This document shows positions 43,668 to 53,584 of a stretch of 64,000 bases of DNA, in pieces. The notes beneath the pieces are model-generated. The model worked only from the letters and a program-made list of their open reading frames with translations, searched no databases and was not told the DNA's origin. A program made the translations under genes and the position numbers. Each line of letters opens with the position of its first letter. Position 1 is the first letter of the stretch. The stretch comes from Methanothrix harundinacea 6Ac (GTDB lineage: Archaea > Halobacteriota > Methanosarcinia > Methanotrichales > Methanotrichaceae), in NCBI RefSeq assembly GCF_000235565.1, contig NC_017527.1:124001-188000 (forward strand), given 5' to 3'.

Positions 43668-46600
43668 TCAGCTCAGGTCCGAGTACTTGTTTCTGTCCCT
43701 CAGCTCCTGCTTCTTCGCCTCGTTCCATCCGCTCACCGACTGGAGGTAGCCGGTGACCCGGGATAGGTACTCCAGATGGTCGGAGCCGCACCTCGGACAC
43801 TCCTCTTTGAGCCCCGGCGAGACGCAGAAGCAGCTGAGACAGACGGTCATGTCCCTGGTGAAGGCGAAGTATCCTATCTGGGTGCTCCTCGCCAGGTTCA
43901 TGGCGAAGTCCATCAGCCCCTGGGGATCGGGGGCCGACTCCCCCAGGAAGATGTGGAATATGTTCCCCCCGTCGACGATCGGGAAGAAGATGTGCTCCAG
44001 CTTCGCCCTCTCGAAGATCGAGACGTCCAGGGAGGGCGGGATGTGGGTCCCGTTGGTGTAGTAGACGGGGAGGTCCCGGGTCTGGTGGATCCTCTTCATG
44101 GCGGTATCGAGGTCGCCCTTGACGACCCGGGCGGCGCAGTCCCGGAACTTCTCGGAGAGGAGGTCGGAGACCGCAAACCTCTGGACTACCGTCTCCGCCG
44201 GGGTCCTCGCCAACGCGATCGTCATTCCGTGGCGGCGGGATAGCTCCTTGGCGTAGATCTCCATCTCCGTCATCGCCCTCACCGCCAGCTTCCAGGCCTC
44301 CTTCGACTCATGCATCTGAGAGCCGGTATGGAACTGGACCATCTCGTTCACCCCCACGACCCCGATGGTGTAGACGAGGCTCTCCAGGTCGACGGCCAGC
44401 GTCCCCTTCTTTCCCGTCCTGGGATCCTTAGGCCTCTGGGTCGCAAAGGGCATCCTCCGGTTCTTTATCACCTGGTTCATCCACTCCCGCTTCACCTTGA
44501 AGATCTCGACGGCGGTATCCATCAGCCCCCGGAGGTACTCGAAGAGGAGGTCGTCGTCCCCCCGGGCGAGGTAGGCGGCCCGGGGGCAGTTGAGGGAGAC
44601 GACCTGCCAGGACCCCATGGAGAAGTGCATCCCTTCCTTGAAGAGGAGCTTATCCTCGAAGGCGGCGTCGCTCTCGAAGGTGGCGGCGAACTGATAGGCG
44701 CAGCAGTTTCCTGTTACGATGCCCATGGCGTTGCTGAAGTTGTGGGTCTCGGATACGTCCACAAGGTCGTAAACGTACCCGCCATATTCCTCCACCTCGA
44801 TCTCCCTTATCTCCAGGACGTGGACATCACCGCCGATCAACCGCTCGATTATGGGCGAGCCTGAAGAATCGATGTGGCGCTGATTCACGCACTTGTGACC
44901 CTGTGATCGGTATTGAGAGGGATATTTCAGATCGGCGTGCTCAAGACCGGCATTCTCTATGGGAATCCTGGTGAAAACCCCTCCTACTTCTTTCCGGTCG
45001 TCAGAAACCGCGCATCCACCGTAGCCTGTCCGGCTGTAGAAGTTCTCTATCTGATCTTGGGATGTGACGTAGCAACTATAACTGGTAAGTCGATAAGGAT
45101 TTCCGGTCTGGGGGTGTCTGACGGTCTCATCGCGAACCATGTAGTTCATCTGTACGCCGATCCTCTGAGCGAGCCAGATCAACCTCTGTACCGCATCTCT
45201 CGAGACCAGCCCAATACGGATGACATGAGCAGTGTGAGGGCGCCCGTTCAGCTCTCCTTTCTGAACATTGACGTTTCCGTCTCCCCTGAATGCGCAACAT
45301 ATGTACTCCCCCACCAGGGACGGGTCTACATTGAAGAGAAGATCTGGCACAGACTTGGTGTGGGCATCGTGGCCACACCCCAGGGCATCTATCAGGAGAT
45401 AAAGCAGCTTGCTGTTGACTACAACGTTCGTCGCGGTCTTCTCCTCTGAGACCTTAGGCTCAAGTCCGAGACTCTTGATGCATGCCATCGCATCATCGAT
45501 CAGCCCGGACTCATGTTTGCCGAAAGAGAGACGAACGGAATACCTTCTGCCACTTTGATCGCTGCAGCCCTCTGCTAGGTAATATCCCAAGAACCGGACC
45601 AATTCGGAGGTTATGGATATATTTTTGGGCAGGCCGGGCTTCTTGGCATTTTTGACGTTCACAGATTCATTATGTACGACGATCTCGTCGGCGTAACCTG
45701 CCTTCAACAGAGTCGTCTCGACATCTATCGAGGCCAGCGGAGCTAACCCGAAATCGACGTCCGTTAGAAGCGGTAGGAAGTCTCCGACGTTGAGGTCACA
45801 AGCCTGCTTTTTGACGAAATTGCCCTTATCGAGAACGTATACGGGATGGTTGGGTGTCACCCTTATACGCCGTCCTGACTTGAGGACGATTTTAAGCAGT
45901 TCCCCCTCGCATCTCTGGCGCATAACACCCTTGAACTCCCTCAGGGAGGCCTCAAGGGTATCGAAGTTGACGCTGGGAGTCCTGCCCTGGAATCGGACGA
46001 ATTCGACGCCGAATGGGTCCGTCTCTTTGCCATATTCCTCTGCTTCGGAGAAAATTTCGCTGATCTGCTTTACATGGATCTGTCCCTCGGGATCCGCCAA
46101 AGAGACCAATTCATCTTCAGCAAGACATTGATAGCAGCTTATCCCCTTCCCCGCCCCCCGGTAGGCGGGAAGCTGGTTGTCGTAGTAGGGGGTGCCGAAC
46201 TTGGAGGCGAGCTGGAAGGAGAGGAGGTAGAGGTCCCGGTAGGTCGGGACCTCGGGGTGAGCGGCGTTGAATCCATCGTCCTCGGCCATGAAGTCCGGCT
46301 CGATGGAGATCTCGGGCTTGGGGAAGTTGAAGGGCTTCCCCCAGTAGTCCCCCTCCAGCATCACCTCCATCAGGGCCTTGAAGCCGAGGCGGACCTCCTT
46401 CTCGAACTCGCCGTAGGTCCGGAGGGGAGCCCCCTCGCCATCCCAGACCTTCCCCTGGTAGACTACGGGCTTGTCCCGCCAGAGCTTCGGGACGCCGGGG
46501 CTGAGCTGGACGGAGGAGAAGACGACCTGGCCGCCCCGGGCGACCATCATCTGGGTCATCTCGTAGACGAACATCTGCATCAGCTGGCAGATCTCGGAGT

Positions 46601-47309
46601 AGTCGAGCCCCTCGAGGTACGGGGCGAGGAAGGTGAGGAAGTTGTAGAACCCCTGCCCTCCGGCGAAGTTCGTCTGGGCTGAGGCGAGGGCCTTGACGGC
46701 ATGGAGCATCGCCACCTCCGGCTTCTTCGCGGGGCCCGCGACGGAGGCCTTCGTCCCCGAGCCGTCGGGCATGAGGCCGTAGTAGAAGAAGTAGCGGAGG
46801 TCCCAGTCCTGGCAGAAGGGGCGGGTCCCGAAGTACTCCAGGTCGTGGATGTGGAGGTCGCCGGCGAGGTGGTGGTCCGATAGGTAGGGGGGGATGAGGA
46901 GGAGGTACTGCTCCTTCGATATCTTGTCCGCCTTCTTCTTGTGGCTCGTCTCGGCGTTCTCCTGGAGGTTCGCGTTCTCGTGGGCCTCGAAGCCGGAGCC
47001 GACGTCGATGAGGTGGGCGTCGTAGACGGGGGTCCCCACCCGGGTGCAGATGTTCCTCCACTCCAGGTGGTGCCTTTCGAGGAGGATGACGTTGACGATC
47101 TCCCTCACCAGCGGCCCGGAGAGGAACTTGACGTCCATCCACCGGATCCGCCGCTCCACCTCCCGGGCGATCTCCGCCGCCTCCTCCTCGGAGATGCCCG
47201 GGATCCGGTAGAACTGCTCGGAGAGCTTCGTCTCCCGGAGGAGCTGCTTCACCACCGCATCCCTGTTCCACCTCATCAGGTGGCCGTCGGTGGTTCTGAC
47301 CATCGGCAT
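43668..47309 (-). CDS. nrdD: Anaerobic ribonucleoside-triphosphate reductase with intein
   Basis: Class III ribonucleotide reductase, a glycyl-radical enzyme making deoxynucleotides without oxygen. The precursor is 1213 residues: N-extein 1-394 (with an ATP-cone-like start, VRTTDGHLMRWNRDAV), intein 395-868, C-extein 869-1213. The C-terminus has the zinc site CLSCFC...CPRCG and the glycyl-radical motif RVTGYL (G1187). The intein interrupts the conserved GISCYQ-CCAYQF. Start: the frame is open to TTG 47375, but a minus-strand TATA at 47345-47357 falls inside that extension, so ATG 47309 (MPMVRTTDG) is preferred. No activase gene nrdG is nearby. Confidence 0.95.
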   Translation of the reverse strand: MPMVRTTDGHLMRWNRDAVVKQLLRETKLSEQFYRIPGISEEEAAEIAREVERRIRWMDVKFLSGPLVREIVNVILLERHHLEWRNICTRVGTPVYDAHLIDVGSGFEAHENANLQENAETSHKKKADKISKEQYLLLIPPYLSDHHLAGDLHIHDLEYFGTRPFCQDWDLRYFFYYGLMPDGSGTKASVAGPAKKPEVAMLHAVKALASAQTNFAGGQGFYNFLTFLAPYLEGLDYSEICQLMQMFVYEMTQMMVARGGQVVFSSVQLSPGVPKLWRDKPVVYQGKVWDGEGAPLRTYGEFEKEVRLGFKALMEVMLEGDYWGKPFNFPKPEISIEPDFMAEDDGFNAAHPEVPTYRDLYLLSFQLASKFGTPYYDNQLPAYRGAGKGISCYQCLAEDELVSLADPEGQIHVKQISEIFSEAEEYGKETDPFGVEFVRFQGRTPSVNFDTLEASLREFKGVMRQRCEGELLKIVLKSGRRIRVTPNHPVYVLDKGNFVKKQACDLNVGDFLPLLTDVDFGLAPLASIDVETTLLKAGYADEIVVHNESVNVKNAKKPGLPKNISITSELVRFLGYYLAEGCSDQSGRRYSVRLSFGKHESGLIDDAMACIKSLGLEPKVSEEKTATNVVVNSKLLYLLIDALGCGHDAHTKSVPDLLFNVDPSLVGEYICCAFRGDGNVNVQKGELNGRPHTAHVIRIGLVSRDAVQRLIWLAQRIGVQMNYMVRDETVRHPQTGNPYRLTSYSCYVTSQDQIENFYSRTGYGGCAVSDDRKEVGGVFTRIPIENAGLEHADLKYPSQYRSQGHKCVNQRHIDSSGSPIIERLIGGDVHVLEIREIEVEEYGGYVYDLVDVSETHNFSNAMGIVTGNCCAYQFAATFESDAAFEDKLLFKEGMHFSMGSWQVVSLNCPRAAYLARGDDDLLFEYLRGLMDTAVEIFKVKREWMNQVIKNRRMPFATQRPKDPRTGKKGTLAVDLESLVYTIGVVGVNEMVQFHTGSQMHESKEAWKLAVRAMTEMEIYAKELSRRHGMTIALARTPAETVVQRFAVSDLLSEKFRDCAARVVKGDLDTAMKRIHQTRDLPVYYTNGTHIPPSLDVSIFERAKLEHIFFPIVDGGNIFHIFLGESAPDPQGLMDFAMNLARSTQIGYFAFTRDMTVCLSCFCVSPGLKEECPRCGSDHLEYLSRVTGYLQSVSGWNEAKKQELRDRNKYSDLS
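44706..46127 (-). other. Intein with LAGLIDADG homing endonuclease domain in NrdD
   Basis: 474 residues. Block A is CLAEDELVS at the N-splice site (Cys1); block B is RVTPNHPVYV (TxxH); a dodecapeptide-type endonuclease occupies the centre with FLGYYLAEGC and YICCAFRGDG; block F is YVYDLVDVSETHNF; it ends GIVTGN followed by Cys+1. All splice nucleophiles are present, but the usual penultimate His is Gly. GC content is visibly lower than in the exteins, consistent with independent spread. After splicing the host is 739 residues. Confidence 0.93.
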
Positions 47310-47754
47310 CTCCGATAGGGAGACGCCCTCCAGCGTGATCTGCTGACTTTTATATCCGTTAACCCTCCGGCTCAATGACAGATACCCCCGATGAGATGCG
47401 ACAGAAGGAGCGAAGAATATCTACCCCCCTGATGGCGCAATCTTCAACCATCCCTGTAAGGCCCCTAAATTTATAACCCCTTCGGCCGATATGAGGTAAA
47501 ATTATAATTAAAGTTGGTCAAAAATCCGATCCCCTCGCCGGGGAGGCATTCGTAACTCTCCATTGATATTTAAAGCCCCGGAGAAGGGCCGAATATTTGA
47601 GGTACCGACGAATAAAAACCGATTAATTCGGCCGGATGCCCCCCGCGAATTAGGTTCCGGGGGCAGTTTTCGGTTATCCGACCTCTCCGCCGATCGCGAA
47701 TGCTGAAATGCCCATCTTCCTATATTTTTGATCGAAATTCGCCCCTGGCCCCCA
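47310..47754. other. nrdD upstream region with TATA box and long inverted repeat
   Basis: It holds the nrdD TATA (minus strand, ggatataaaagtc, 47345-47357) and farther upstream an 8-bp inverted repeat, ggccgaat (47587-47594) and attcggcc (47626-47633). No coding frame is convincing. The fmn-reductase gene ends at 47755 on the same strand. Confidence 0.5.
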
Positions 47755-48297: not shown

Positions 48298-48466
48298 AAG
48301 GTTCTTTTTCTTATTCAAGATATGAATAGCCTTTTCTCGACCCAACCGGCCGCCGTTGATCGATCCCAGCCGGCTCCGCTCCTGCTCGCGGAGTGGATAT
48401 GCCCCCGGATGGCGATCAAAAAGCGTTAATCGCTGGAACTCAAAAATAAGACCAGGTGGTGAACCT

Positions 48467-48988
48467 GTGGAGACGATCAGAACGTGTATAGGCTTCCATG
48501 GAGAGGCCGAGGAGGCGGCGAACCTCTACGTCGATGCCTTCTCTAGGGCCTTCGGAGACTCGAAGATCCTGAAGATCACATACTATGGAGATGAAGAGCT
48601 GGAGGCGCTAAGAGAAGTCCCCGATGTGACAGAGGAATTCATGCCGGGGCCTCCCGGGAGCGTGAAGGACGTCCGTTTCCTGCTGAACGGAGATGAGCTG
48701 ATGGCGTTCAACGGCGGGGGCTACTTCGGCAACTTCACCGAGAGCGTCTCCCTCTATGTCAGCTGCAAGACCCAAGACCAGATAGACGGACTCTGGGAGA
48801 AGCTCTCCGAAGGCGGGATCGAGCAGCAGTGCGGCTGGCTGAAGGACCGGTTCGGCGTAAGCTGGCAGATCGCCCCTGAGATCATCCAGGAGATCATGGA
48901 GGGGCCTGACCAGGAGAGGGCCCAGCGGGTGATGAAGGTCCTCTACGGGATGAAGAAGATCGAGATCGAAGAAATTTTGAAGGCATGA
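48467..48988 (+). CDS. PhnB-like glyoxalase-fold protein
   Basis: A 173-residue protein of the PhnB / 3-demethylubiquinone-methyltransferase-like VOC family: IRTCIGFHGEAEEAANLYVDAF, FLLNGDELMAFNGG, LSEGGIEQQCGWLKDRFGVSWQIAP. The catalytic role in archaea is unknown. GTG 48467 follows aggtggtga; ATG of the next gene overlaps its stop (ATGA), so it forms an operon with ridA. Confidence 0.85.
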   Translation: METIRTCIGFHGEAEEAANLYVDAFSRAFGDSKILKITYYGDEELEALREVPDVTEEFMPGPPGSVKDVRFLLNGDELMAFNGGGYFGNFTESVSLYVSCKTQDQIDGLWEKLSEGGIEQQCGWLKDRFGVSWQIAPEIIQEIMEGPDQERAQRVMKVLYGMKKIEIEEILKA

Positions 48989-49440
48989 GATGGGAGAAGA
49001 TGGGAGATGAGCAAGATATGGGAAGAGGATTGGTCCAGCACATAAACCCCGAGGGGCTATCAAAAAATCCGGCCTTCTCCCAGGCGGTCGTGGTAACCGG
49101 CCCGGCGAAGACGATATACGTCGGGGGGCAGGACGCCGTCGACGGATCGGGGAATATAGTCGGTGAGGGCGACGTCGGACTCCAGACGGAGCAGGTCCTG
49201 AAAAACATCCAGACGGCGCTCGCGGCCGCAGGCGCGGACCTTGCGGACGTCGTCAAGTGGAACGTTTACGTCGTCGCCGGCCAGCCCCTCCAGCCGGGCT
49301 TCGAGGCGTTCATGAGGGGGTGGGGCCGCCGACCCAACCCGCCGGCGATCACCATGGCCTTCGTCAGCGGGCTCGCGCGCCCGGAGTATCTGGTGGAGAT
49401 CGATGCTGTAGCCGTGGTGGAGGAACAAGGAGGAAGGTAG
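48985..49440 (+). CDS. ridA: RidA/YjgF enamine deaminase family protein
   Basis: A 151-residue RidA protein that hydrolyses reactive enamine/imine intermediates: SQAVVVTGPAKTIYVGGQ, QTEQVLKNIQTALAAAGADLADVVKWNVYV, RPEYLVEIDAVAVV. The first ~17 residues extend beyond the usual start. It ends VVEEQGGR; the truncated homologous copy at 51550-51810 ends VVEE. The 3' half is nearly identical in the two copies. Confidence 0.92.
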   Translation: MRWEKMGDEQDMGRGLVQHINPEGLSKNPAFSQAVVVTGPAKTIYVGGQDAVDGSGNIVGEGDVGLQTEQVLKNIQTALAAAGADLADVVKWNVYVVAGQPLQPGFEAFMRGWGRRPNPPAITMAFVSGLARPEYLVEIDAVAVVEEQGGR

Positions 49441-49600
49441 CAAAATAGCGCAACTTTAAACGGGTGCTTTAGGCAGAGCTGCTCTGACATGGACCGTGCC
49501 ACCTTCCCACCCCCAGACTCCGATCAAACAGCTCACCGGGATGCCTGCTTGCCCTTGTACCTCCCAGCCCTAATGATCGATCTCTGATACCATTATTCCC

Positions 49601-49669
49601 TATCACTAAAAACTGATATAGGATATCACTGATAACCTTAAATACATATCAGTAAATGGTGATATCACT
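49601..49669. promoter_or_regulatory. Operator array around the abiEi-like promoter
   Basis: Six half-sites of the form TATCA(C/G)T or its complement A(C/G)TGATA occur in 69 bases (49601, 49612, 49624, 49628, 49647, 49663), forming interleaved inverted repeats around the TATA-like ccttaaatac (49636-49645) and across the ATG at 49656. The layout fits autoregulation by the winged-helix antitoxin encoded immediately downstream. Confidence 0.8.
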
Positions 49670-50687
49670 CATGAAGACCATATCACCCTCCAGCTCTGAG
49701 ATTATCGCGTTCCTTCGCCAAGAGCTAGAAATCAGCGAGAACGTATCTATAAAGCAGGAGGGTATGCTCAACGATAATTACCCTATTCGGTTTGACCTGA
49801 TCATCGAAGACGACGGTAAAACGTACGTCGTGGAAATCAAGCGGATCGTGCGCCTTGAGGCCCTCTCACGGCTCGGGCTGCTAAAACTGCTCCTAAATGC
49901 CGATAACATCAGCAATTACGACATCGAATTCGTCATGGTAGGTAAACGGATAACACCGGAAGCTGCTGAAGCCGCTGAGAAGACAGGGATGCGATTCATC
50001 AAGCTGCCAGCTGATGTGAACTTAGAAGAAGCCCGCCCCAAGTCCAGCGCCTTGTCGGTGAAGCTCACATCCCCCAAGTCCTGGCAAGCCATCTCATATC
50101 TTCTCAAGATAAAGGAGGCTTCCATCAGGCAGCTCGCGATCGCATCTGGCGTCTCCTACGGCTGGACCCATGCGACGGTGAAGGCTCTCGCCTCAAAGGG
50201 AATAGCATCAGCCGATAGGGGCCTCGTAGAGATCGCTGACAAAAACAAGCTTCTCAACGGCATAGCGTGGGAGCGGCCGTTCGAGAAGCTCTTTGCCCAG
50301 GAGATTCGGATAGCTGCCGAGAGCCCCATGGCGCTCGCCCAGGAAATTTGCCTCGTCTGCGATGAGCAGCAGATTCCAAGCGCTTTTTCCAGCTACACTG
50401 CAGCAGAGATTTACACCGGCTACAGCGCGAGGCACGATTCGATATACCTTTATATTGAGAGGAAAAATATAGATGAAGTTGTAGGGATGTTTGAAGTGCA
50501 GAACGAAGGCGGAACAGCTGTACGAATCTATGCTCCAGACCGCGATGTTTTCAAGGATCGCAGAATTTCCACCGTGGAGGGCGTTTGGCTCGTCTCGCCC
50601 GCCCAGGCCCTCCTCGACTGTGCGGGCCTGGGATATGCAGGCCGCGACCTCACATTAAGGCTGGTGGAGATCTATGACCGCCTATAG
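49656..50687 (+). CDS. AbiEi-like antitoxin/regulator with PD-(D/E)xK-like N-terminus
   Basis: A 343-residue protein. The N-terminal ~125 residues have a restriction-endonuclease-like pattern (FDLIIEDDG...YVVEIKR, D47 and E60-x-K62). A winged helix follows (about 140-195; SIRQLAIASGVSYGWTHATVKALASKG), then a C-terminal domain like that of AbiEi antitoxins (AAEIYTGYSARHDSIYLY, WLVSPAQALLDCAGLGYAGRDL). The stop overlaps the start of the nucleotidyltransferase gene by 14 bases. A start at ATG 49671 is also possible. GC is lower than in neighbours. Confidence 0.78.
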   Translation: MVISLMKTISPSSSEIIAFLRQELEISENVSIKQEGMLNDNYPIRFDLIIEDDGKTYVVEIKRIVRLEALSRLGLLKLLLNADNISNYDIEFVMVGKRITPEAAEAAEKTGMRFIKLPADVNLEEARPKSSALSVKLTSPKSWQAISYLLKIKEASIRQLAIASGVSYGWTHATVKALASKGIASADRGLVEIADKNKLLNGIAWERPFEKLFAQEIRIAAESPMALAQEICLVCDEQQIPSAFSSYTAAEIYTGYSARHDSIYLYIERKNIDEVVGMFEVQNEGGTAVRIYAPDRDVFKDRRISTVEGVWLVSPAQALLDCAGLGYAGRDLTLRLVEIYDRL

Positions 50688-51441
50688 AGCCCCACGAACG
50701 ATTGTGGACGCGTCCCTGGAGGAGCTGATCGACATATTCCGCTGGGTGCATGCCCGAGAGAAGGATGAGAGAAATCCCGTCACCGTTTTGATCGGCGGCT
50801 GGGCGGTGTACAGCTACAATAAGTGGTACGGCTCGGTGGATATCGATCTTGTCACCAATAACAAGACAAAGCATCAACTGATGAAGCGCCTGAGGGACGA
50901 ACGGGGATTTGTTCACCAGAGGGACCCGATGGTTCCCACCACAGTTGTGAAAAATGTCCAGGAAGAGAAGATCCTTCTCGACTTTGGGTCGCGGGAGGAT
51001 ATCTCCAGGTTTGAGGGGAGAGATGAACAACTTCCGTTTTCGCTTCTTGATGGGCGTACTGAGGCAAGAGAGATCAGCCCAAGTTCTTCTGTTTCTGTGA
51101 TTGTGCCCGAAAGAACGCTGCTCATGATCTTCAAGCTCAAGGCTGCATGGGACCGCTCGTTCCGGATACAGAATGAAACCGCCGAAGATGAGGAATGGGA
51201 GAAGAGCAAGCTATGCAAGGATCGGGCCGATATTATAGCTCTCATCGACCCTGACGCCGGGGGCACTGAGATCGATATTCAATATCTTGGTGAGAGGCTT
51301 CGCATGAACCCGTTCCTGGTGGAGGTGCTTTGGGAGATCCCGAGCGACATCGATGCAGTCGATATGTACGGCAGGATGGAACAGAAGGAAGTTCAGGATT
51401 CCATCGAGAAGCTGCTCCTCCTTGCGGGAGAAAGAAAATGA
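50674..51441 (+). CDS. AbiEii-like nucleotidyltransferase toxin
   Basis: A 255-residue nucleotidyltransferase-fold protein with the signature VLIGGWAVYSY (GG at 41-42) and SVDIDL (D56, D58), and a third acidic residue likely in KILLDFGSRED. The pairing with an AbiEi-type regulator makes this a type IV abortive-infection toxin, whose relatives transfer nucleotides to tRNA or other targets. Overlap with the antitoxin gene gives coupled translation. AT-richer than the surrounding core genes. Confidence 0.78.
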   Translation: MTAYRAPRTIVDASLEELIDIFRWVHAREKDERNPVTVLIGGWAVYSYNKWYGSVDIDLVTNNKTKHQLMKRLRDERGFVHQRDPMVPTTVVKNVQEEKILLDFGSREDISRFEGRDEQLPFSLLDGRTEAREISPSSSVSVIVPERTLLMIFKLKAAWDRSFRIQNETAEDEEWEKSKLCKDRADIIALIDPDAGGTEIDIQYLGERLRMNPFLVEVLWEIPSDIDAVDMYGRMEQKEVQDSIEKLLLLAGERK

Positions 51442-51549
51442 GCTTCGCCTGAACGAATTCCAGTCATCACACAGCTCCATTGCCAGTCCCTTGCCCAATC
51501 CACTCCAGCTCTTCGGCCTGACGCAAGCTGGCTGCCCAGGAGGCAAAAA

Positions 51550-51810
51550 GGCGACATCCGGCAGCAGACGGTTCAGATCCTGATAAACATCCAGACGGCG
51601 CTCGCGGCCGCAGGCGCAGACCTTGCGGACGTCGTCAAGTGGAACGTTTACGTGGTCGCCGGCCAGCCCCTCCAGCCGGGCTTCGAGGCGTTCATGAGGG
51701 CGTGGGGCCGCAGGCCCAACCCGCCGGCGATCACCATGGCCTTCGTCAGCGGGCTCGCGCGCCCGGAGTATCTGGTGGAGATCGACGCGGTAGCCGTGGT
51801 GGAGGAGTAG
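51550..51810 (+). pseudogene. 3' fragment of a second ridA copy
   Basis: Reading from 51550, GDIRQQTVQILINIQTALAA continues as LADVVKWNVYVVAGQPLQ and ends IDAVAVVEE-stop at 51810. It aligns with the ridA gene 49166-49428 with only a handful of base differences in the last ~220 bases and more in the first 40. The N-terminal third is absent: sequence upstream of 51547 is unrelated. It is a truncated paralog left at the right edge of the AbiE cassette. Confidence 0.85.
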
Positions 51811-51842
51811 AGGCTAAAAAGCAGATCGCCTAAAAACTGATC

Positions 51843-52523
51843 CTACTCTCGACCGCCCACGTGGCGATTCAGCTGAGATAAAAACAGATCTGCAGAGAGG
51901 TCGTCTGCCGGTTCGATGTAGCTCTCAAATGAGTTCGATTTTTCGCGATCTGCAATGATGAAACATGCTGCATTGTACTGACGCTCTCGGACCAGCTTCC
52001 GGCAGAATAGCTCGTACCTCTTGGCGTATGAAGCGCCCCGAAACTCCTCGAAGACCGGAAAGTGGGTCTCCTGAGTTCTCACCGGGCTTCTTGATTCTGG
52101 GCAGTCCTCCAGCAAGAACAGATACCCAAGCCAGGGCGCAGGGGATGTGCAAAAGGCACCTTCCCTGTAAGCGGTCCAGATATCCAGGGCCGTGCCCATC
52201 GCCTCCTCTGTGCGGTTGTTGAAGTTGTTTCCAAACGAGAGGCCGACCTGTGACTTGAGCTCGATGGCAGCCATAAGCACTCCATCGACTACCACCACGA
52301 TATCCCAACCCTTGACGGGGCGGAAGAATCCGGGCAGGTGAGTCTTTTTCGTGTAGATGTTCCCCTCATCGACGCCGCTTGCCGTCATCAGCTCGATGAT
52401 CTTTCGGACGAATCCGTCCATCTGCTTTCCGCCGGTGACAGCGCTCCGCGCCCCCTGATCAGACCCGCCGCGCCTCTCCTGGTCCTTGATCTGCCGATCT
52501 CTGATCTGCCAGAAAGTTTTCAC
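51843..52523 (-). CDS. PaeR7I/XhoI-family type II restriction endonuclease
   Basis: A 226-residue enzyme matching the PaeR7I/XhoI family (CTCGAG in characterised members): QGARSAVTGGKQMDGFVRK, LPGFFRPVKGWDIVVVVDG, AAIELKSQVG (catalytic ExK), SFGNNFNNRTEEAMG. The only canonical start in frame is GTG 52523, yet homology-like residues continue about 12 codons upstream (FAGDLVFSDA) to just after the methyltransferase stop, so the N-terminus may use a rare ATT/ATC start or be slightly damaged. Paired with the upstream methyltransferase. Confidence 0.88.
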   Translation of the reverse strand: MKTFWQIRDRQIKDQERRGGSDQGARSAVTGGKQMDGFVRKIIELMTASGVDEGNIYTKKTHLPGFFRPVKGWDIVVVVDGVLMAAIELKSQVGLSFGNNFNNRTEEAMGTALDIWTAYREGAFCTSPAPWLGYLFLLEDCPESRSPVRTQETHFPVFEEFRGASYAKRYELFCRKLVRERQYNAACFIIADREKSNSFESYIEPADDLSADLFLSQLNRHVGGRE

Positions 52524-52573: not shown

Positions 52574-53584
52574 CTAGAAGCCGTCGAAATCCAGCGTAAG
52601 CTGCTTATTTCTGATCTTGTTGAGACGATTCGAGGCCATCTCAAAATACGTCGGCTCGATCTCGAATCCCACGCTGCTCCGCCCCCACTGGCCAGCGGCC
52701 AGGTTTGTGGTTCCCGTGCCCATGAAGGGGTCGAGGACCGTATCTCCAACGAAGGAGAACATCCTTATGAGCCTCTCAGCAAGGGCCAGAGGAAAGGGGG
52801 CAGGATGTTTTCTCGTCGATGCCCCCGTGATCGTCCAGATCTGCTGGAACCACTCCTTGTGGAGATCCTCGGGGATCACCGAGAGGAGACGAGCCGCATT
52901 TGAGGGCTTTCGATACCCTCCCGGCTTTCTCTGAAATAGTATGTACTCGATGTCGTTCTTGACGATGGCATTCGGCTCATAAGGCTTTCCCAAGAACTTC
53001 GACCCGTTATTCGACTCGAATCTGGCGTTCGCGATCTTGTACCAGATGATCGGCGCGAGGTTGTCAAAGCCGATCTTCCGGCACCGCTCCTGGATGCTGG
53101 CATGCAGAGGAAAAACGACGTGCCTGCCGAAGCAGCGCCTCGGAAGGCAGACGTCCCCCACCACGACCACCAGGCGGCCGCCGGGGACGAGGACCCGGAA
53201 GACGTTCCGCCAGACCCTGTCCAGCTCGTCGAGGAACTGCTCGTAGTCTTCGACGGAGCCGAGCTGCCCCTCGTTGGCTGGGTACTCCTTGAGGGTCCAG
53301 TAGGGAGGAGAGGTGACCGCCAGATGGACGCTCTCGTCCGGGATCTCCTCCATAAAACGGCTGTCACCGAGGAAGAGCTGATGGCGGGTGGGGACCCGCT
53401 TTGCAGCCATCTCGATCTCCAGGAGAAGATCCGGGTTTTTGGCGATGGCTGGAATCGCCCTCTGCCCTTCGCTTCGGGCAAAATTTAGAGCATTTATCGG
53501 AACCAGATCCTCCAGCTCTCGCCCAAAATCGGAGGGCTCGATTATCACCACATCCTCGCACATCTTCGAACCCAGACTCCTCAC
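52574..53584 (-). CDS. Beta-class DNA methyltransferase (Cfr9I/XcyI-like)
   Basis: A 336-residue DNA methyltransferase with circularly ordered beta-class motifs: [12 protein letters not shown] (motif IV, about 92-103) before the target domain, then [13 protein letters not shown] (SAM motif I) at the C-terminus. SPPY and the segments [16 protein letters not shown] and [14 protein letters not shown] resemble N4-cytosine enzymes of the Cfr9I group. It should protect DNA from the adjacent PaeR7I-like nuclease. The GTG start overlaps the hemB stop (GTGA); ATG 53563 is an alternative. Confidence 0.88.

Follow-up and report, generated by a model that had tools for sequence, protein, structure and literature searches.

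An AbiE/MenAT-like toxin-antitoxin cassette with a conserved archaeal operator between an intact and a truncated ridA gene in Methanothrix harundinacea 6Ac

The window analysed here, a stretch of 64,000 nucleotides of the Methanothrix harundinacea 6Ac genome (contig NC_017527.1, positions 124,001 to 188,000), contains a two-gene toxin-antitoxin (TA) operon flanked by an intact and a truncated copy of ridA, in the interval between FMN_red and hemB; all positions given below are those of the window. The left copy of ridA is a full RidA/L-PSP open reading frame on the forward strand (PF01042, E=1.9e-20), encoding a protein like the enamine/imine deaminases of the RidA/Rid family; it ends at 49440 and starts at 48985, where it overlaps the stop codon of a phnB-like gene, or alternatively at 49030. 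This gene is orthologous to the single ridA of the congener G006 (91% identity over 383 nt). The phnB-like gene (48356-48988; PF06983) is found in the same order in Methanosarcina (L040), and is missing at this site in G006, G002 and G005. Beyond the right copy of ridA, and outside the cassette, are the genes of a restriction-modification (R-M) system, i.e., an XhoI-type restriction endonuclease (51843-52523, reverse strand; PF04555, E=5.5e-105) and an N6/N4 methyltransferase (52574-53584, reverse strand; PF01555, E=1e-38). The system is apparently intact, and its presumed site CTCGAG is present 23 times in the window versus 48 expected. A preliminary sequence-only reading had described an AbiE-like unit, AT-richer and with its own operator, between an intact and a truncated ridA. 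This arrangement was confirmed, and the operator has a GC content of 31% and each cassette gene one of 53%, compared with 63% and 68% for the ridA copies. Besides the cassette, the interval holds the phnB-like gene and the XhoI-type R-M system. Elsewhere in the window, nrdD (43668-47375, reverse strand) carries an intein-like insertion (44706-46125) that is absent from the congeners aligned, whose sequence is contiguous across the site.

The two copies of ridA form a direct repeat (49168-49424 and 51550-51806) with 94% identity over 257 nt. Aligned base by base, they show 9 differences in the first 35 bases (49168-49202) and only 7 in the following 222 (49203-49424), and the change point at 49202|49203 is abrupt (Fisher p=3.4e-5, permutation p=0.0002). 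The right copy consists of a diverged 5' remnant (51550-51584, forward strand), with 26 of 35 positions identical to each of the left copy, G006 and G002, and a near-identical 3' part (51585-51810, forward strand), which agrees with the left copy at 97% of 222 nt and is proposed to be a gene-conversion tract. The near-identity reported by the sequence-only reading therefore holds for 49203-49424, whereas position 49166, where that reading set the limit of the repeat, is approximately the start of homology and corresponds to no gene end; the segment 49168-49202 is diverged ridA. Its estimate that the right copy had lost its first third was about right: approximately 60 codons are missing and the homology begins at codon 61 of the 151 of the left copy. 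The frame is open back to the toxin stop codon but contains no ATG, GTG or TTG start before 51652; on account of this lack of a usable start, the right copy is most likely a pseudogene. An assembly duplication was ruled out, given that the copies differ at 16 sites and their flanks are different.

The first gene of the cassette (49671-50687, forward strand, with an alternative start at 49656) encodes a candidate antitoxin and autoregulator of 338 residues, with an N-terminal NucS/EndoMS-like PD-(D/E)XK fold, a winged helix-turn-helix (wHTH) and a C-terminal domain; the second (50674-51441, forward strand) overlaps it by 14 nt and encodes a nucleotidyltransferase of 255 residues, which is a candidate toxin of the AbiEii/MenT type. 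Against the Pfam AbiEii profile the toxin scores only 14.0 bits (E=0.049), under the gathering cut-off of 22.5; 14 of 30 toxin homologues match this profile at E<0.1 (best 2.8e-5), and PADLOC detected nothing in the cassette. The AbiE-like identity that had been assigned to it is nevertheless borne out by the four DUF1814 motifs and a MenT-like fold. The motifs, as defined by Dy et al. 2014 (PMC3985639), are highly conserved: G41, G42 and D56-I57-D58 of motifs I and II (general form hG[G/S]...DhD), with a spacing of 13 residues (GG-x13-DID), occur in all 30 homologues; in motif III (KLKAxWDR, compared with KLxAaxxR in the COG4849 branch) the K, A and R are present in 30/30, and the W, located one position after the published aromatic residue, in 29/30; motif IV (K182-D183-x-A185-D186, i.e., KDxAD, a form of +DxxD) is also found in 30/30. 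The arginine usual in motif II, which Dy et al. described for AbiEii/DUF1814, is absent from the sequence GSVDID of this toxin, and S54 is present in all 30 homologues. Dy et al. also described a COG4861-COG4849 regulator-nucleotidyltransferase pair beside the classical COG5340-COG2253 pair (PMC3985639), and the operon resembles the former.

The AlphaFold model of the toxin (mean pLDDT 91.9) gave as its 14 best PDB matches only MenT3/TglT (6j7p) or MenT1 (8an4), with moderate TM scores (0.4-0.57). These MenAT proteins of Mycobacterium tuberculosis are therefore its closest solved folds (Foldseek E 5e-5, prob 1.00); however, the identity is 11-19% at TM scores of 0.4-0.5, the antitoxin is a different one, and an activity of the cassette toxin on tRNA is only putative. 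Roughly the first third of the antitoxin shares its fold with the C-terminal domain of the mismatch endonuclease NucS/EndoMS (Foldseek E 2e-5; Pfam NucS_C weak); the pTM of 0.62 leaves the packing of the domains uncertain, and for the C-terminal domain no specific fold was found among the matches listed. The nuclease signature is partly decayed, with D42 in 30/31, E55 in 27/31 and K57 in 21/31 sequences; since E55 and K57 are not universal, a DNA-binding or structural role for this domain seems at least as likely as cleavage. With the type IV AbiE systems (AbiEi-AbiEii) the cassette shares the gene order, a regulator followed by an overlapping nucleotidyltransferase gene; the four DUF1814 motifs, including nearly the COG4849 form KLxA..R and +DxxD; and a bicistronic operon, seen at all the loci read, with a wHTH regulator as its first gene and inverted repeats over the promoter. 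It differs from them in the sub-threshold AbiEii score, in the lack of an arginine before DID and in the NucS/EndoMS-like domain of the antitoxin. The cassette can be placed among the AbiE/MenAT-like TA systems as a distinct, transferable, type-IV-like form, and its archaeal operator is strongly conserved.

This operator and promoter region (49583-49670, forward strand) shows TATCA-N1-TGATA and TATCA-N8-TGATA units that alternate around a TATA-like box, TTAAATAC, at 49638-49645. A degenerate first unit (approx. 49583-49593) is followed by an N8 unit (49601-49618), an N1 unit (49624-49634) and, on the other side of the box, a second N8 unit (49647-49664); the transcript is probably leaderless. 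The site TATCANTGATA (one mismatch or less) occurs only once in the window. Upstream of all 23 antitoxin genes examined, operator units were found at a similar register, usually as two alternating pairs, and the proximal N1 and N8 units mostly start 23 nt apart, one on each side of the TATA box. These 23 upstream regions contain 80 units with one mismatch or less, versus 0.6 in shuffled sequences (maximum 4), and the operator is kept down to about 37% protein identity. Among 393 genomes of the phylum, the proximal pair of units was found in 46, while a reversed control pattern gave three matches in all. Most of the exact or one-mismatch sites examined lie upstream of an antitoxin gene; several are solitary, with no antitoxin gene behind them, e.g., L123 (in G040), L105 (in G288), L114-L117 and other loci. 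Solitary operators are possibly scars of cassette loss, or they belong to genes under the same regulator. Among the papers seen in a literature search for the operator string or for archaeal AbiEi operators, none was on point.

The cassette recurs as a unit of operator, wHTH antitoxin and nucleotidyltransferase toxin, with the antitoxin gene upstream at 31/31 loci read. The toxin is present in 35 of the 393 genomes, representing 20 genera; the 8 congeners all lack it. Its closest relatives belong to another genus of the family (71% identity; G024 and G031), and a relative in a different family still shows 67% (G103), whereas approx. 40-48% is the level of most relatives that belong to the class but not to the family; near relatives in other genera and in another family indicate that the cassette moved horizontally. 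In an alignment of five cassettes the common sequence extends from the first operator unit to the end of the toxin gene or just after it. The segment between the toxin and the truncated ridA (51442-51549) is partly similar to G024 up to about 51489; outside the genome of the window itself, it matched none of the related loci. No terminal repeats were found in the cassette, nor an integrase, a recombinase or a tRNA near the locus; scans of the area for Rfam families and tRNA genes gave no hits, and no relatives of the toxin were found in viral contigs or plasmids.

The site has a complex history in the genus. In the hemB-hemA tree the window's genome (G000) is near G006, apart from the groups G003, G004, G007, G008 and G002, G001, G005; the FMN_red tree conflicts with this and places G000 with G007, and therefore recombination between lineages probably occurred. 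The comparison with relatives that had been suggested for the locus did reveal an empty site: the close relative G006 has FMN_red, a single ridA and hemB, with no cassette. In G004 the order is FMN_red, a 5'-truncated ridA, the XhoI-type R-M system and hemB, and G007 and G008 have the same 5' deletion of ridA, joined to the end of FMN_red, so that a single ancestral event is probable. G002 and G008 carry, near hemB, a second ridA 3' fragment, separate from the ridA on the FMN_red side; in G008 the pieces are on two contigs and in G002 they are parted by a large chromosomal rearrangement. Two intact tandem ridA genes were found in no genome. The 22 kb between the pieces in G002 were considered as a mobile insertion, and this was rejected: they are ordinary chromosomal genes, located elsewhere in G000 (594-608 kb and 190-192 kb), and reflect a rearrangement or a binning or assembly effect. 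The methyltransferase gene adjoins hemB also in G003, G004 and the deep-branching G005, the latter without the R gene and with two other genes in its place; its presence beside hemB in G003 and G005 makes the R-M system probably an old resident that has suffered losses. In G007 a segment of approx. 255 bp that starts with CTTCCTCCCCGCCCTTAAGAGCGG lies between the decayed ridA and hemB (L031, 9618-9873) and resembles IS200/IS605-type non-autonomous elements. In G008 (L030, 503-1126) inverted fragments, from the 3' end of FMN_red and from the region that follows it, are found between a ridA fragment and hemB, a sign of repeated local rearrangement. Within the genus, the FMN_red-hemB interval is a hotspot of rearrangement.

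We regard as established the TA operon and its operator, the sporadic distribution of the operon, the presence of one intact and one truncated ridA, and the abrupt change in divergence between these two copies. As for how they came together, the sequences lead us to favour, with somewhat more belief than doubt, a history in which an older pair of ridA genes received the TA cassette in the 3' flank of its left copy and was later subject to conversion. In the ancestor, FMN_red and hemB would have enclosed two copies, with the XhoI-type R-M system beside the right one; the cassette would have inserted downstream of the left copy, in its 3' flank, the right copy would have lost its 5' part, and the 3' 222 bp of both would later have been homogenised. 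Sister lineages could have undergone recombination between their two copies, a collapse that leaves only one ridA, followed by the right-hand flank; the order that would result, FMN_red, ridA, right flank, is the one seen in G006. A ridA pair as background, which had already been proposed, gains support from the separate 3' fragments near hemB in G002 and G008 and from the two different 3' flanks. The flank of the left copy ("alpha", 49441 to about 49582-49588) has a homologue in the DNA that follows ridA in G007 (75.6% over 90 nt, E=6e-10, in a contiguous alignment) and does not match that of the right copy ("beta", 51811-51842), which is continuous with the R-M system; the latter junction occurs also in G004 (score 55, 0 of 1000 shuffles), and its similarity to G006 and G008 is marginal (p about 0.05). 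The occurrence of both flank types in the window is what would be expected if there was an ancestral pair and each of the other genomes retained only one of its members. The homology with G007 ends in the operator-like GATCACTGAT, near an operator unit, exactly at the start of the cassette, perhaps as a scar of loss or as a microhomology used at insertion.

Gene conversion, also part of the sequence-only reading, was upheld by the abrupt change point, since near-identity of the aligned copies begins after 49202, and by the tree of the 3' part, in which the two copies of the window are sisters and G006 is next; this position supports homogenisation after the species split. The short diverged segment of the right copy (35 nt) matches each of the left copy, G006 and G002 at 26/35 positions, while over the same 35 nt G006 and G002 are alike with the left copy at 30-31; this pattern is best explained by replacement of the 3' part through conversion, a very close donor being the main alternative. 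A separate "B-type" ridA lineage (G005, G002 and G008) was also considered: its support is 0.97, but this relies on approx. 134 nt for two of the three, and the grouping of the right copy's 35 nt with it is not clear, so that we do not rely on this lineage. A recent and simple ridA duplication at cassette insertion, with no older pair and with the 35-nt divergence due to pseudogene decay, would account for 3' parts that are 97% identical and sisters in the tree. We judge it unlikely: uniform decay would not concentrate 9 differences in the first 35 nt and leave only 7 for the other 222, most of these 7, compared with relatives and outgroups, are changes on the intact left copy instead of the truncated one, and the 3' flanks of the two copies differ.

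A stronger competitor, which we still doubt, is a composite import, where a relative's cassette, ridA 3' part, R-M system and hemB entered a recipient with a single ridA through homology at hemB to the right and, to the left, an illegitimate junction near 49585, the right copy being the tail of the donor's ridA. The match of the right flank and R-M junction to G004, that of the left flank to G007, whose ridA has no adjoining R-M system, and the grouping of G000 with G007 in the FMN_red tree against the hemBA tree would all agree with such an import. However, the identity of the right 3' part is 97% with the left copy but only 84% with G004, so that conversion or a very close donor would still be needed, and an R-M system that lies beside hemB also in G003 and the deep-branching G005 need not have been imported. 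The suggestion of a target duplication, or of an element that carries the gene end with it, was not supported: there is no integrase, terminal repeat or tRNA, and related cassettes have no ridA at their edges. A site-specific integrating element that restores its target, as at tRNA genes, would be expected to leave just such a geometry, with the gene intact on one side of it and a 3' end displaced to the other; nevertheless, we consider this very improbable here. Integrative elements of that kind have a recombinase, a short att core and the same ends in several hosts, whereas this locus has no recombinase or tRNA nearby, its identical segment of 222 bp is far above the usual att cores, the cassettes of G024, G031, G015 and G103 have neither ridA nor any common sequence outside the stretch from operator to toxin, and the alpha flank of the left copy is common to G007, which has no cassette.

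In the favoured explanation, the antitoxin is predicted to repress its own operon by binding to the TATCA/TGATA units around the TATA box; the toxin, by analogy with MenT, would transfer nucleotides to RNA, probably to the 3' ends of tRNA, unless it is neutralised. Clean excision would be possible because the cassette is flanked by a 222-bp direct repeat with 97% identity: one homologous exchange would remove it and leave a full-length ridA, and the TA module would counter-select such a loss. A broader proposal, offered tentatively and with a good deal of reserve, is that the autoregulator of this broadly spread archaeal TA family reads one operator grammar across several archaeal families, in a fixed register on the TATA box, that resident and incoming cassettes and the solitary operators that remain when a cassette is lost would thereby be under common control, and that the ridA repeat is the excision route against which the TA module guards.

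The shared operator is the testable part of this work, and the history of the site is partly inferred. It would be unusual for a TA system to keep its operator constant while its proteins diverge to about 37% identity; such constancy predicts that cassettes of different archaea engage in cross-talk, and it provides a simple DNA signature for a TA family that is missed by PADLOC and by the Pfam thresholds. The history proposed for ridA would, in turn, be a small and dateable example of a TA cassette that lodged beside a duplicate of a housekeeping gene, and of gene conversion overwriting gene copies in a methanogen.
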